Shown here: in pieces, positions 56,970 through 62,191 of the stretch
How positions within the stretch are numbered: position 1 is the stretch's first letter
Layout of the letters: every line of letters begins with the position of its first letter
Assembly: GCA_009911715.1 (NCBI GenBank)
Contig: CP047880.1
Span: 248,001-312,000 of the forward strand
Source of the DNA: Methanomassiliicoccaceae archaeon DOK
GTDB lineage: Archaea; Thermoplasmatota; Thermoplasmata; Methanomassiliicoccales; Methanomethylophilaceae
DNA: 64,000 nucleotides
Direction of reading: 5' to 3'
The notes under the pieces: model-generated
Databases searched by the model: none
What the model was told of the DNA's origin: nothing
The model's input: the letters and a program-made list of their open reading frames with translations, nothing else
Program-made: the position numbers and the translations under genes

Positions 56970-58244
56970 ATGAGCGGTAGCACCATCACCTCGTCCAGCA
57001 CCTCCGGCGGAGTCCCGGTGGTCGTGGAGAACATCCCCGGAAGCCAGAGCGCTGCATTCATGATCGGCGTCGCCACCGGGTCCAGGGACGAGCATCCGGA
57101 GATATTCGGTCTGTCGCACCTCCTGGAGCACACGGTTTTCAGGGAGACCGAGACCAGGGACTCGTACCAGATGGCTAAGGAGATGGAGGGGGCCGGTGGA
57201 GAGCTCAACGCGTTCACCGGCAGGGAGATGACCGCGTTCTACGGGATCACGATCAAGGAGACCGCGCCGACTGCCATGGACATGGTCGGGGACATAGTCG
57301 CCCATCCCAAGATCAACGAGGAGGACACCGAGCTCGAGAAGAAGATCGTCCTGCAGGAGCTGAGCATGATCCGCAACGAGCCGGACAGCTACATACACGA
57401 CCTCTTCGAGTCCACGCTCTGGAGGGGCCACGCCCTCTCCCAGGACGAGGGCGGCGACGAGAAGGTCGTCGCGGGGCTGACGTCCGCGGACCTCCGCGCC
57501 TACTACGAGGAGAAGTACCTGATCCCCAACCTGGCGGTCTACGCTGCCGGCGCCATAGACGTCGACGAGACGGTCCGCTGGGCCGAGGAGGTGCTGGATC
57601 CCATGAAGGGAGGCGCCAGGAACACCCGCAGCGCCCCGCAGACCCCGAACTCGGAGTACCGCTTCGTCAAGGGCGATGCCGAGCACTGCCACGTCGCCAT
57701 GGGGTTCCCGTCATACGGCGCATCCCATCCGGACAGGATGGCCGCCTCCATGCTGAGCGCGGTCCTCGGATCCGGCACGAGCTCCAGGCTGTTCCAGAAC
57801 GTCAGGGAGAAGAAGGCCCTGGTGTACTCGATATACACCACGGTGTCTCAGAACAGCGACGCCTCATCGCTTACATCCTACATGTCGTGCACGGACGGCA
57901 ACGTCATAGAGGCGATGGAGACCGTCGCATCGGTCATTTCCCAGTTCCTGAGGGAGGGGTTGGAGAAGGGCGAGCTGGAGAGGGCGAAGAGGCTCATCAA
58001 GGGAGCCAACGTCCGCAGCATGGAGTCCACGGAGCACAGGCTCTACAGGCTCGGGGTCAACCACATGCTCAACGGTGCCACAGAGACCCTGGAGGAGCGT
58101 CTGTCGAGGATAGACGCCGTCACGGAGGATGACGTCATGCGCGTAGCCGACGACCTTCTGAGGGCGGACCGCCTGAACACGGTCGTCCTCGGCAAGGGGA
58201 ACAGGGAGATCAGGAAGTACGACGCCTCGGCGCTGACCCTGTGA
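56970..58244 (+). CDS. M16 family zinc metallopeptidase
   Basis: The 424-residue protein has the inverted zinc motif HLLEH (His50, Glu53, His54) and a third ligand Glu130 in KKIVLQELSM, 76 residues later, as M16 requires. It also has GELNAFTGREMTAFYG and a second, non-catalytic half with SSRLFQNVREKKALVYSIY. The length fits one subunit of a processing-peptidase-like dimer. M16 enzymes are common in bacteria and patchy in archaea. It overlaps the convergent hydrogenase protease gene by 35 bp. Confidence 0.9.
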   Translation: MSGSTITSSSTSGGVPVVVENIPGSQSAAFMIGVATGSRDEHPEIFGLSHLLEHTVFRETETRDSYQMAKEMEGAGGELNAFTGREMTAFYGITIKETAPTAMDMVGDIVAHPKINEEDTELEKKIVLQELSMIRNEPDSYIHDLFESTLWRGHALSQDEGGDEKVVAGLTSADLRAYYEEKYLIPNLAVYAAGAIDVDETVRWAEEVLDPMKGGARNTRSAPQTPNSEYRFVKGDAEHCHVAMGFPSYGASHPDRMAASMLSAVLGSGTSSRLFQNVREKKALVYSIYTTVSQNSDASSLTSYMSCTDGNVIEAMETVASVISQFLREGLEKGELERAKRLIKGANVRSMESTEHRLYRLGVNHMLNGATETLEERLSRIDAVTEDDVMRVADDLLRADRLNTVVLGKGNREIRKYDASALTL

Positions 58245-58719
58245 GCTCCTCCATTATGTGGAGCACCGCCCTGCCGGCGCTTTCCACGGAGCCCTCCACC
58301 TCGGGGGTCATGGTTTCGGTGACCGTCTTGATGTCCTGGACCTCGATGGCGACGAACCTGACCTCCTCAGGCATTATGTCCGGGTCCATCTGACGGCCGA
58401 TCTTGATCGCCGTGGGTAGGTTGACGTCATGCGACGCCGCATGGGCGATGGCCTCGTCGAAGTCGCGCTCGGAGAACAGCATGACCGTCCCGGGGCCGTA
58501 GTTCCCGGTCTGGATGGCGTCGACTATAATGGCGTACCTGTATCCGTGTATTACGGGCAGGATGTCCAGCCCCCCGACCGCCTCCTGGCAGCAGTCCACG
58601 TTCTCGAGGCCCATGGCCTCGATCGCCTCCGAAACGCGGAGCCCGACGGCGTCGTCGCACATTATCGGGCTTCCGAGTCCCACGACGACGATCTCTGCAT
58701 CTCTGTCCACGCCTGTCAC
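58210..58719 (-). CDS. hydrogenase maturation protease (HycI/HyaD family)
   Basis: The 169-residue protein has IVVVGLGSPIMCDDAVGLRVSEA, the family N-terminal motif with the acidic Ni-sensing residues. It also has AIIVDAIQTG with a conserved Asp, and SHDVNLP, which places the His ligand. It would cut the C-terminal tail of a [NiFe]-hydrogenase large subunit after nickel insertion. No hydrogenase is in the window. The start is GTG with a perfect GGAGGT ribosome-binding site. Confidence 0.86.
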   Translation of the reverse strand: MTGVDRDAEIVVVGLGSPIMCDDAVGLRVSEAIEAMGLENVDCCQEAVGGLDILPVIHGYRYAIIVDAIQTGNYGPGTVMLFSERDFDEAIAHAASHDVNLPTAIKIGRQMDPDIMPEEVRFVAIEVQDIKTVTETMTPEVEGSVESAGRAVLHIMEELTGSAPRRRTS

Positions 58720-58869: not shown

Positions 58870-58891
58870 GTGTTATCTCCGAGGATAACAC
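58870..58891. promoter_or_regulatory. perfect inverted repeat before the LysR-like gene, probable operator
   Basis: GTGTTATC-N6-GATAACAC has perfect 8-bp arms and ends 11 bp before the regulator's ATG. It shares AGGATAACAC with the repeat upstream of hdrC. Autoregulation, probably repression given the position at the transcription start, is inferred. Confidence 0.65.
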
Positions 58892-58902
58892 TGCTATGCG
58901 GC

Positions 58903-59703
58903 ATGGACATAACGGTCCGGAACTCGCAGACCATCAACGGTAAGACGATCACCACCCGTCAGCTGGAGGCCCTCCTCGCGGTACAGGACACGGGGAGCCA
59001 GACAGCCGCCGCGAGGAGGCTGGGGATATCCGTGCCTGTCCTCCACAAGTACATGCGCGTCATCGAGGAAGCGGTCGGCGAACCGGTCCTCAAGACCACG
59101 CCAGGGGGGTCGACCCTGACCGAGCAGGGGGAGAGGATTGCGTCCCTGGCACGGTCCATGGACCATCGCTGCGAGACCGAGAGGGGGTTCACCGTGTGCT
59201 GCAGCCCCGTCACCGAGGACCTGACGATGTCCGTGATATCGTCTCTGAAGATCCCGGGGGCGAACATAGTGGTCTCGGACGACCAGTACAACATCCGCAT
59301 GATGCGCGAGGACCGTGCGGACCTGGCGATCATCGACGATCCGCTGTACCTCTTCGACGCGGAGGAGTTCCAGATGGAGGAGATCGGATACATGGGCATG
59401 GTGCTCGTCGATAACGGACCCTCGTTCATCCGTTACAAGTACGGTGCGCAGAGGGTCGCGTTCATGTATCTGGATTCGGAGGACAGGCAGTACACGATCG
59501 ACTCCGAGACGTTCTCCCTCCCGGAGCTCCTCGGGTCGAACAAGAGCTTCTTCATCGACGAGTTCATGCTGACCAGGAGGAACCTCAGGCTGAAGAGCGC
59601 TGTGGATCCTAAGATGCTGCGCCATGCCATAACGGCGATCTACCGCGAGGAGACGAGGACCGTGTCCAGGGTCATAAAGGCGCTGATAGCCAGGAACATC
59701 TGA
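58903..59703 (+). CDS. LysR/ModE-like transcriptional regulator
   Basis: The 266-residue protein has an N-terminal LysR-type winged helix: TRQLEALLAVQDTGSQTAAARRLGISVPVLHKYMRVIEE over residues 18-56, then EPVLKTTPGGSTLTEQGERI. A shortened substrate-binding-like domain from residue 90 has VCCSPVTEDLTMSVI, ADLAIIDDPLYLF and FSLPELLGSNKSFFIDEF. It lies just upstream of hdrCB on the same strand. Related inverted repeats precede both its own gene and hdrC. Confidence 0.75.
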   Translation: MDITVRNSQTINGKTITTRQLEALLAVQDTGSQTAAARRLGISVPVLHKYMRVIEEAVGEPVLKTTPGGSTLTEQGERIASLARSMDHRCETERGFTVCCSPVTEDLTMSVISSLKIPGANIVVSDDQYNIRMMREDRADLAIIDDPLYLFDAEEFQMEEIGYMGMVLVDNGPSFIRYKYGAQRVAFMYLDSEDRQYTIDSETFSLPELLGSNKSFFIDEFMLTRRNLRLKSAVDPKMLRHAITAIYREETRTVSRVIKALIARNI

Positions 59704-59707
59704 TCCT

Positions 59708-59733
59708 GGTGTTTTATCCAATAGGATAACACC
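59708..59733 (+). promoter_or_regulatory. inverted repeat upstream of hdrC, probable operator
   Basis: GGTGTTTTATCC-AATA-GGATAACACC contains the symmetric core TTATCC/GGATAA and shares AGGATAACAC with 58882-58891. It ends about 20 bp before the hdrC TATA box, the position expected for an activator. Confidence 0.62.
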
Positions 59734-59753: not shown

Positions 59754-59763
59754 TATTAAATAT
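59754..59763 (+). promoter_or_regulatory. TATA box of hdrCB
   Basis: ATTAAATATC lies about 33 bp upstream of the hdrC ATG, directly downstream of the inverted repeat at 59708-59733. Confidence 0.6.
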
Positions 59764-59791: not shown

Positions 59792-60286
59792 ATGGTAACG
59801 CCCAACCCCGATTTCGCCAAAGAGATCGCCGCAGCCGGCGGCGAGGAAGTCAAGATGTGCTTCCAGTGCGGAACCTGCACCGCCGGATGCCCCTCCGGAA
59901 GGAGGACATCCTACAGGGTCAGGAAACTCATGAGGATGGCTCAGCTCGGAATGAAGGAGGAGATCGTCAACAGCGAGGAGCTGTGGGAGTGCAGCACCTG
60001 CTACACCTGCGTCGAGAGGTGCCCCAGGCAGGTTCCCATCGTGGACATCATCATCGCCCTCAGGAACATTGCAGTCGCCGAGGGTCACATGTACGAGAAC
60101 CACAAGAACACTGCCAAGAACCTGGCCAAGTACGGACACACCGTCTCCGTCCAGGACAAGATCACCGCCCTCAGGGAGCAGATCGGACTTCCCGGCATCC
60201 CGCCCACCGTTCTCTCCAACGACAAGGCAAAGGCCGACCTCGACAAGATCCTGACTCTCACGGGATTCGACAAGATTACGGAGTGA
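59792..60286 (+). CDS. hdrC: heterodisulfide reductase subunit C
   Basis: The 164-residue iron-sulfur protein has two [4Fe-4S] motifs: CFQCGTCTAGCPSGRR near residue 23 and CSTCYTCVERCPRQVP near residue 69. HdrC passes electrons from HdrA to the HdrB active site that reduces the CoM-S-S-CoB heterodisulfide, the last step of methanogenesis. HdrA is not in the window. In hydrogen-dependent methylotrophs it works with the Mvh hydrogenase. hdrB follows after 5 bp. Confidence 0.94.
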   Translation: MVTPNPDFAKEIAAAGGEEVKMCFQCGTCTAGCPSGRRTSYRVRKLMRMAQLGMKEEIVNSEELWECSTCYTCVERCPRQVPIVDIIIALRNIAVAEGHMYENHKNTAKNLAKYGHTVSVQDKITALREQIGLPGIPPTVLSNDKAKADLDKILTLTGFDKITE

Positions 60287-60291
60287 TTCTC

Positions 60292-61137
60292 ATGGCAAAA
60301 TACGCGTTTTTCCTCGGATGCATCGCACCCCTCAGGTACCCTGGAATCGAGAAGTCCACGAGGGAGGTCTGTGCCGCCCTCGGAGTCGAGCTCGTCGACC
60401 TCCAGGATGCTAGCTGCTGCCCCGCCCCCGGAGTCATCAGGGCGTTCAGCAAGAAGACCTGGCTCGCAGCTGCCGCCAGGAACCTGGCCCTCGCCGAGAA
60501 GCAGGGTCTCCCGATCCTCACCATCTGCAACGGATGCTACGGATCCCTGTTCGACGCCGCCCACGAGCTCGCTCACGACGAGAAGCTCCTGGCCGAGGTC
60601 AACGAGGTCCTGAAGGAGATCGGAATGGAGTACAAGGGAACCACCAAGGTCTACCACTTTGCCGAGGTCCTGTACAGGGAGGTCGGAATCGAGGGAATCA
60701 AGGCCAAGATCACCAACCCTCTGTCCTATCAGGTTGCTGCCTTCTACGGATGCCACTTCCTGAAGCCCAGCAACATCAAGGGCGTTGACGACCCCGAGGA
60801 CCCCAAGATCCTGGACGAGCTGATCGAGGCCACCGGTGCCAAGAGCATGCCCAGGAAGCAGAAGATGCTGTGCTGCGGAGCTGGAGGAGGACTCAAGGCC
60901 GCCTTCGGAGACGTCGCCAAGAAGTTCACCGAGACCAACCTCGAGAACATGAAGGAGTCCGGTGCCCAGTACATCATCGACGTCTGTCCGTTCTGCCACC
61001 TGCAGTTCGACGGAGTGCAGAAGGAGCTCGGATACAACATCCCCGTCCTGCACCTGTCCCAGCTCTACGGACTGGCCATGGGAATGACCGCAGAGGACCT
61101 CGCTCTCTCCGCGCACGTCACCCCCGTGACCCTCTGA
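60292..61137 (+). CDS. hdrB: heterodisulfide reductase subunit B
   Basis: The 281-residue protein begins YAFFLGCIAPLRYPG. It has the two cysteine-rich CCG-type motifs that bind non-cubane [4Fe-4S] clusters: ASCCPAPGVIRAF with ICNGCYGS, and GCHFLKPS with LCCGAGGGLKAAF and CPFCHLQFD. This subunit reduces CoM-S-S-CoB. The ATG at 60292 follows the hdrC stop closely. A strong hairpin terminator comes 18 bp after the stop. Confidence 0.95.
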   Translation: MAKYAFFLGCIAPLRYPGIEKSTREVCAALGVELVDLQDASCCPAPGVIRAFSKKTWLAAAARNLALAEKQGLPILTICNGCYGSLFDAAHELAHDEKLLAEVNEVLKEIGMEYKGTTKVYHFAEVLYREVGIEGIKAKITNPLSYQVAAFYGCHFLKPSNIKGVDDPEDPKILDELIEATGAKSMPRKQKMLCCGAGGGLKAAFGDVAKKFTETNLENMKESGAQYIIDVCPFCHLQFDGVQKELGYNIPVLHLSQLYGLAMGMTAEDLALSAHVTPVTL

Positions 61138-61438: not shown

Positions 61439-62191
61439 ATGGCACCCGCAAAGAAAGTCAAGGCCGCAGCAGGCCGCAAGGTGAAGGACAAGTGGAAGGC
61501 GAAAGAGTGGTACAAGATCCACGCTCCCCGCATGTTCAACGAGTCCGAGATCGGAGAGACCCCCTCTGCAGACCCCGAGTTCGTCATCGGACGTACCGTC
61601 GAGGTCACCGTGCAGGACCTCACTGGGGACTTCTCCAAGATGCACATCAAGCTGAAGTTCAAGGTCACATCCGTCGACGGACACGACGCCAAGACCGCAT
61701 TCATCGGCCACGACCTGACCAGCGACTACGTCAGGAGGCTGACCCGCAGGAGAAAGACCAAGACCGACCACGTCGTCGACATCGTCACCAAGGACGGGTT
61801 CACCTACAGGATCAAGACCATGTCCATCGCCGACAGGCGCATCCAGTCCTCCCAGGAGGACGCCATGAGGAGGGTCATCGGAGAGACCCTCGTCGCCATC
61901 GGACAGGAGAGGACCCTCTCCGAGATCGTCAAGGACATCGTCTCCGGAGACCTCGCCAAGGAGCTGGCCAGGGCCTGCCGCATCATCATCCCCATCAAGA
62001 GGATCGAGATCCGCAAGTCCGAGGTCCTCGCCGTCGGAGAGGGAGAGCCCGAGTCCATCATGCCAGCCGCCGATGTGCAGCCCGCTGAGGACGAGGAGTC
62101 CGAGGAGGCCTCTACTGAGGAGCCTGCCGAGGAGCCCGCCGCCGAGGCAGAGGAGCCCGAGGCCCCCGCTGAGGAGAAGGCCGAGGAGTGA
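61439..62191 (+). CDS. rps3ae: 30S ribosomal protein eS1
   Basis: The 250-residue protein has the eS1 start KDKWKAKEWYKIHAPRMFN, LTGDFSKMHIKLKFKV, GHDLTSDYVRRLTRRRKTK and RRIQSSQEDAMRRV-like segments. It ends with a 35-residue acidic Glu/Ala/Pro tail. It belongs to the mRNA exit region of the 30S subunit. The ATG is preceded by AAAGGAG. Its own promoter and terminator make it monocistronic. Confidence 0.95.
   Translation: MAPAKKVKAAAGRKVKDKWKAKEWYKIHAPRMFNESEIGETPSADPEFVIGRTVEVTVQDLTGDFSKMHIKLKFKVTSVDGHDAKTAFIGHDLTSDYVRRLTRRRKTKTDHVVDIVTKDGFTYRIKTMSIADRRIQSSQEDAMRRVIGETLVAIGQERTLSEIVKDIVSGDLAKELARACRIIIPIKRIEIRKSEVLAVGEGEPESIMPAADVQPAEDEESEEASTEEPAEEPAAEAEEPEAPAEEKAEE

Follow-up and report, generated by a model that had tools for sequence, protein, structure and literature searches.

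In the window, by which we mean the whole 64,000-nucleotide stretch of the Methanomassiliicoccaceae archaeon DOK contig (CP047880.1) that was analysed here, a gene for a LysR-type regulator is directly followed by hdrC and hdrB, and related palindromes stand before the regulator and before hdrC. The features of the locus are listed below.

58210..58719, minus strand: hydrogenase maturation protease (HycI/HyaD type), divergent; TIGR00072, 87.7 bits against a cut-off of 47.45
58870..58891, unstranded: putative autoregulatory operator-like dyad GTGTTATC-N6-GATAACAC (spacer TCCGAG) at the regulator's own start
58903..59703, plus strand: LysR-type regulator, 266 aa, with a winged HTH at the N-terminus (about residues 18-77) followed by a compact effector domain of LysR type
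59711..59732, unstranded: putative activator site, operator-like dyad GTTTTATCC-AATA-GGATAACAC, upstream of hdrC
59755..59762, plus strand: hdrC TATA box ATTAAATA, 22 bp past the dyad end and 37 bp before the hdrC ATG
59792..60286, plus strand: hdrC, CoB-CoM heterodisulfide reductase subunit C; TIGR03290, 189 bits against a curated equivalog cut-off of 160
60292..61137, plus strand: hdrB, CoB-CoM heterodisulfide reductase subunit B; TIGR03288, 402 bits against a curated equivalog cut-off of 345

The regulator had been described as LysR-like in the initial annotation, and this identity was borne out by the Pfam domain HTH_1 (PF00126; 5.3e-13, 49.1 bits against a cut-off of 26.6), which assigns the protein to the LysR-type transcriptional regulators (LTTR), by an AlphaFold2 model built from 53 orthologues (mean pLDDT 94.6), and by the PDB matches to this model, which were full-length LysR proteins (best E 4e-16), with CcmR in complex with 2-oxoglutarate and CbnR as the first. 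The regulator sequence gave no Pfam match to the LysR substrate (effector) domain; since the best PDB matches were full-length LysR regulators, the C-terminal part was assigned by its fold as a compact LysR effector domain of the periplasmic-binding-like type. The strongly conserved residues of this part (D127, D145-D146-P147, G181, Q183-R184, S215, and F217) probably mark a pocket. A metabolite or an oxyanion had been suggested earlier as the signal. Judged from the LysR fold, a small ligand is likely, whereas an oxyanion was not specifically supported: the ModE-like match (TIGR00637, 28 bits against a cut-off of 98.5) was far under the cut-off and covered the DNA-binding domain only, and with an effector part of LysR fold the identity as ModE was rejected. 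A direct thiol switch was weighed as well, but the cysteines near residues 90, 99, and 100 show no conservation within the order, which speaks against it. The segment of the recognition helix (PVLHRY-like) is conserved to the same degree as the core of the dyad described below. We also noticed that where residue 50 of this segment is His, the left arm tends to read TAACC rather than TTACC, a tendency confounded by relatedness, and this pairing is possibly a change of specificity.

Both palindromes of the window are of one 22-bp dyad type, GTRTTAYC-N6-GRTAAYAC. The first has perfect 8-bp arms and ends 11 bp from the regulator ATG, and the second is best parsed as a 9-4-9 dyad with one mismatch in the arms. 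They have in common the 10-mer AGGATAACAC, which occurs twice in the 64 kb, precisely at these sites, while 0.06 occurrences would be expected and none of 100 shuffled sequences contained two copies. The initial annotation was thus right in placing a palindrome with 8-bp arms 11 bp before the regulator ATG, a related one upstream of the hdrC TATA box, and an identical 10-mer in both; only the longer left stretch that it gave to the second palindrome (GGTGTTTTATCC) was not retained, since the 22-bp register gives the two sites equal architecture. A genome-wide search for the motif, proposed along with it, showed that the core TTAYC-N6-GRTAA is rare, with exactly four copies in the whole 1.89-Mb genome, two of them being the sites at the regulator and at hdrC. 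Such scans are pattern-based, and loose cores give many chance matches in AT-rich genomes, which we did not take as a regulon.

The regulator is present as a single orthologue across the order Methanomassiliicoccales, in 59 of 60 sampled genomes (that of the window included) and in all 18 genera. It is nearly always located directly before hdrC-hdrB, and these two genes follow it wherever the contig reaches far enough. The divergent upstream position of the HycI-type protease gene is also kept in most members of the order; no evidence was found for control of this gene by the regulator. When 54 hdrC promoters were scanned with a consensus derived from the same promoter set, at least 12 of the 16 consensus positions were matched in 52 of them and at least 13 in 49, in comparison to 12% and 2%, respectively, of shuffled promoters. 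Of 104 promoters, which represent 86 distinct sites and include related and some duplicate genomes, 102 have a gap of 20-22 bp between the end of the dyad and the TATA box. The distance from the TATA box to the hdrC start varied over the same promoters, mostly between 36 and 54. A fixed gap on one side of the TATA box together with a free distance on the other matches the need of a regulator acting on the core promoter. In one genome (G047, L043), two tandem operator-like dyads were observed between the regulator and hdrC, each followed by a TATA-like box, and an upstream ATG lies there in frame with hdrC.

On the basis of these results, we consider it probable that the product of the gene at 58903-59703 is a LysR-type regulator dedicated to hdrCB, and that it acts through the 22-bp dyad, activates hdrC, represses its own gene, and is controlled by a ligand. 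A LysR dimer, alone or as one dimer of a tetramer, would most likely bind the dyad, whose centre at hdrC would lie about -63 from the transcription start if the TATA box is placed near -30. The bound regulator would then help TBP/TFB at the hdrC TATA box, so that transcription goes up, and a small ligand, which most likely exists, would be held in the LysR effector domain and govern the activity of the regulator. Activation of hdrC, although most likely, is suggested by promoter geometry, which makes it plausible, and a dyad upstream of the TATA box also allows repression. We find it unlikely that the regulator binds both dyads yet represses hdrCB, by bending the DNA or by blocking TFB or RNA polymerase, until the ligand releases it. 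Although the positions of both dyads suit binding of this kind, the hdrC dyad stands well clear of the TATA box at its fixed distance, whereas repressor sites in archaeal promoters usually overlap the TATA/BRE elements or the transcription start. As for precedents, HrsM, a LysR-type regulator of Methanococcus, is a repressor (PMC11097638), but the nearest functional precedent, HdrR of Methanosarcina barkeri, activates its target (PMC11218639).

Full-length orthologues of the regulator were also found in three further families of the same class, Thermoplasmata (f8, f24, and f20). In f8 and f24 its gene likewise stands ahead of hdrC-hdrB, with the dyad at the usual distance from the TATA box. 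An S3ae-like ribosomal protein gene follows hdrB both in the window (61439-62191) and in f8 (L081:76-1065), which indicates that the neighbourhood is conserved beyond the order. At the f8 loci (L078-L087; e.g. L081:4480-5301) the operator overlaps the final codons of the regulator gene, lying within them, and the TAA stop of this gene is a part of the right half-site (CTT TAC CCT AAA AGG TAA CGC), and the stretch from the operator to the TATA box is also strongly conserved. In the f20 genome G084, the regulator gene lies at 4.55 Mb and one hdrCB pair at 0.40 Mb on a contig of 5.16 Mb, about 1 Mb apart if the contig is circular, and a perfect dyad (16/16) still precedes the TATA box of this distant hdrC; the second hdrCB pair of the same genome has no dyad. 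No operator was found at the second hdrCB pair of another genome either (G033, L177), where a different dyad, AGTATC-TTTT-GATACT, stands directly before the TATA box, and this pair may have its own regulator. HdrB was above the cut-off in 59 of 200 genomes of the class. In families f19 and f23, represented by eight genomes with hdrC-hdrB, there was no full-length regulator, and the dyad was found in none of the eight hdrC promoters (best 9-11/16). The sampled genomes are related, so that counts of genomes are not independent; at the family level, the regulator and the dyad occur together in nine families and are both missing in two (Fisher p = 0.018). Of all the evidence, this joint presence and absence speaks most strongly for the neighbouring regulator as the reader of the dyad. 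Together with the synteny across the order and the conservation of the site at a fixed spacing, it supports the proposal of the initial annotation that heterodisulfide reductase has a dedicated regulator; the conservation upstream of hdrC in relatives, on which that proposal depended, extends across Methanomassiliicoccales.

Alternatively, the dyad could belong to another transcription factor, with the LysR protein as a mere neighbour, but we regard this as very improbable. It would be consistent with the lack in the dyad of a conserved column pair forming the canonical T-N11-A box, which is typical though not obligatory for LTTR; the dyad is of even length, and its symmetric pairs are T-N14-A and T-N12-A, with the half-sites (columns 4-8 and 15-19) one helical turn apart. 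A mere neighbour would, however, hardly share the family distribution of the dyad, nor would the hdrC dyad be expected to persist in G084 with the regulator elsewhere in the genome, and two of the only four exact cores in the genome of the window lie at the regulator and hdrC.

The two arms of the dyad covary beyond shuffled arms at columns 2, 3, 5, and 7 (none of 2000 shuffles reached the observed value, relatedness being ignored). At columns 7/16, the pair where the core varies most, C-A mismatches (14) outnumber T-G (8), so that RNA wobble is not favoured and the dyad is likelier a DNA site than a hairpin. An RNA element, such as a hairpin downstream of the regulator gene that serves in termination or processing, is hardly credible and was rejected: an inverted repeat just past a stop codon could indeed fold as a hairpin, but another copy precedes the regulator's own start, the fixed spacing to the TATA box would have no reason, and the almost invariant T of column 4 and A of column 19 are what base-specific reading predicts.

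McrA was found only in genomes of Methanomassiliicoccales and in none of f8, f24, or f20; several of these genomes are incomplete, so the absence was judged for each family as a whole. The unit of regulator, operator, and hdrCB may be an old circuit of Thermoplasmata that is independent of methane formation, with a ligand reporting a thiol, redox, or electron-carrier state common to methanogens and non-methanogens, a reading to which we give slightly less than even chances. If it is true, HdrBC would be controlled also in lineages without methyl-coenzyme M reductase, the signal would not be an intermediate of methanogenesis, and the regulator would represent a LysR activator of archaea that is held at a constant distance from the TATA box.

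The dyad at the regulator's own start has a narrower distribution. About 20 genomes of the genus of the window, and G035, carry it with its end 7-11 bp upstream of the start codon; most other lineages lack it. Self-regulation looks like a lineage-specific addition, and the hdrC site is the widely conserved one. If the leader is short, as expected for this genus from the distance between TATA and start at hdrC, the TATA and start region of the regulator would lie under the dyad, which fits self-repression. Binding of the regulator there would most likely repress its own gene, as is plausible from this geometry. Self-regulation combined with activation of a neighbour is a common habit of LysR proteins.

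We also looked for the dyad at other sites. At the mvhD/flpD loci, which stood in for the hdrA-mvh operon, no convincing dyad was seen (best 13/16), thus control of hdrA-mvh by the regulator was not supported. A third dyad (15/16) was noticed in the genome of the window, in an intergenic position upstream of an alpha/beta hydrolase gene (G000:632995; L062:1499-1520), with the TATA box of the divergent small gene about 230 bp away. The closest relative, G023, has it as well (L101:1202-1223), and it is absent in the relatives G014, G015, G027, and G019.

Heterodisulfide reductase is the enzyme with which the methanogenic cycle closes, and among the methanogens of the gut and rumen the Methanomassiliicoccales are important. 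In the open-licence literature searched, we found no description of how the transcription of hdr genes is controlled in this order, and neither the regulator family, nor its operator, nor their spread is described there. A comparative genomics study of the order reported that hdrB and hdrC are adjacent and that hdrA stands apart beside mvhDGA, and the word "regulator" is absent from its main text (PMC4153887). A regulator present in one copy, with a single and sharply delimited operator, offers a directly testable control point, and a clean case for how a LysR protein of bacterial type works at an archaeal TATA promoter. That relatives without methyl-coenzyme M reductase also have it raises the question of which signal ties HdrBC expression to general metabolism.

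The kind of system is already known from HdrR and HrsM. HdrR (MSBRM_RS03855) activates hdrBCA of Methanosarcina barkeri and binds a conserved palindrome in the promoter, and its loss lowers transcription; it is annotated as a hypothetical protein, and its authors liken it to two-component regulators (PMC11218639). Compared by description, HdrR and, as proposed, the regulator of the window are both dedicated to soluble heterodisulfide reductase genes with a promoter palindrome. As with HdrR, genomes that have the regulator show a conserved palindrome in their hdr promoters, to judge from synteny, operator conservation, and joint presence. HdrR differs in belonging to another archaeal group and in its operon, hdrBCA, with the regulator gene located past hdrA and one further gene, according to locus numbers. 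A pattern-based scan of GTDB genomes for the regulator family returned records from Thermoplasmata and Methanomassiliicoccales, and none from Methanosarcina. HrsM resembles the regulator of the window as a LysR-type protein of a methanogen whose targets belong to the hydrogenase and heterodisulfide reductase branch: it binds between frc and vhc and represses the genes of selenium-free isoenzymes under selenium sufficiency (PMC11097638). Unlike the activator proposed here, it is a repressor and is not described as a neighbour of hdrCB. With the bacterial LysR regulators CcmR, CbnR, BenM, and OxyR, the regulator of the window shares domain order and fold; it differs from them in a compact effector domain that escapes the LysR substrate model of Pfam, in an operator that is an even 22-bp dyad in place of one with a conserved T-N11-A box, and in its setting at an archaeal TATA promoter.
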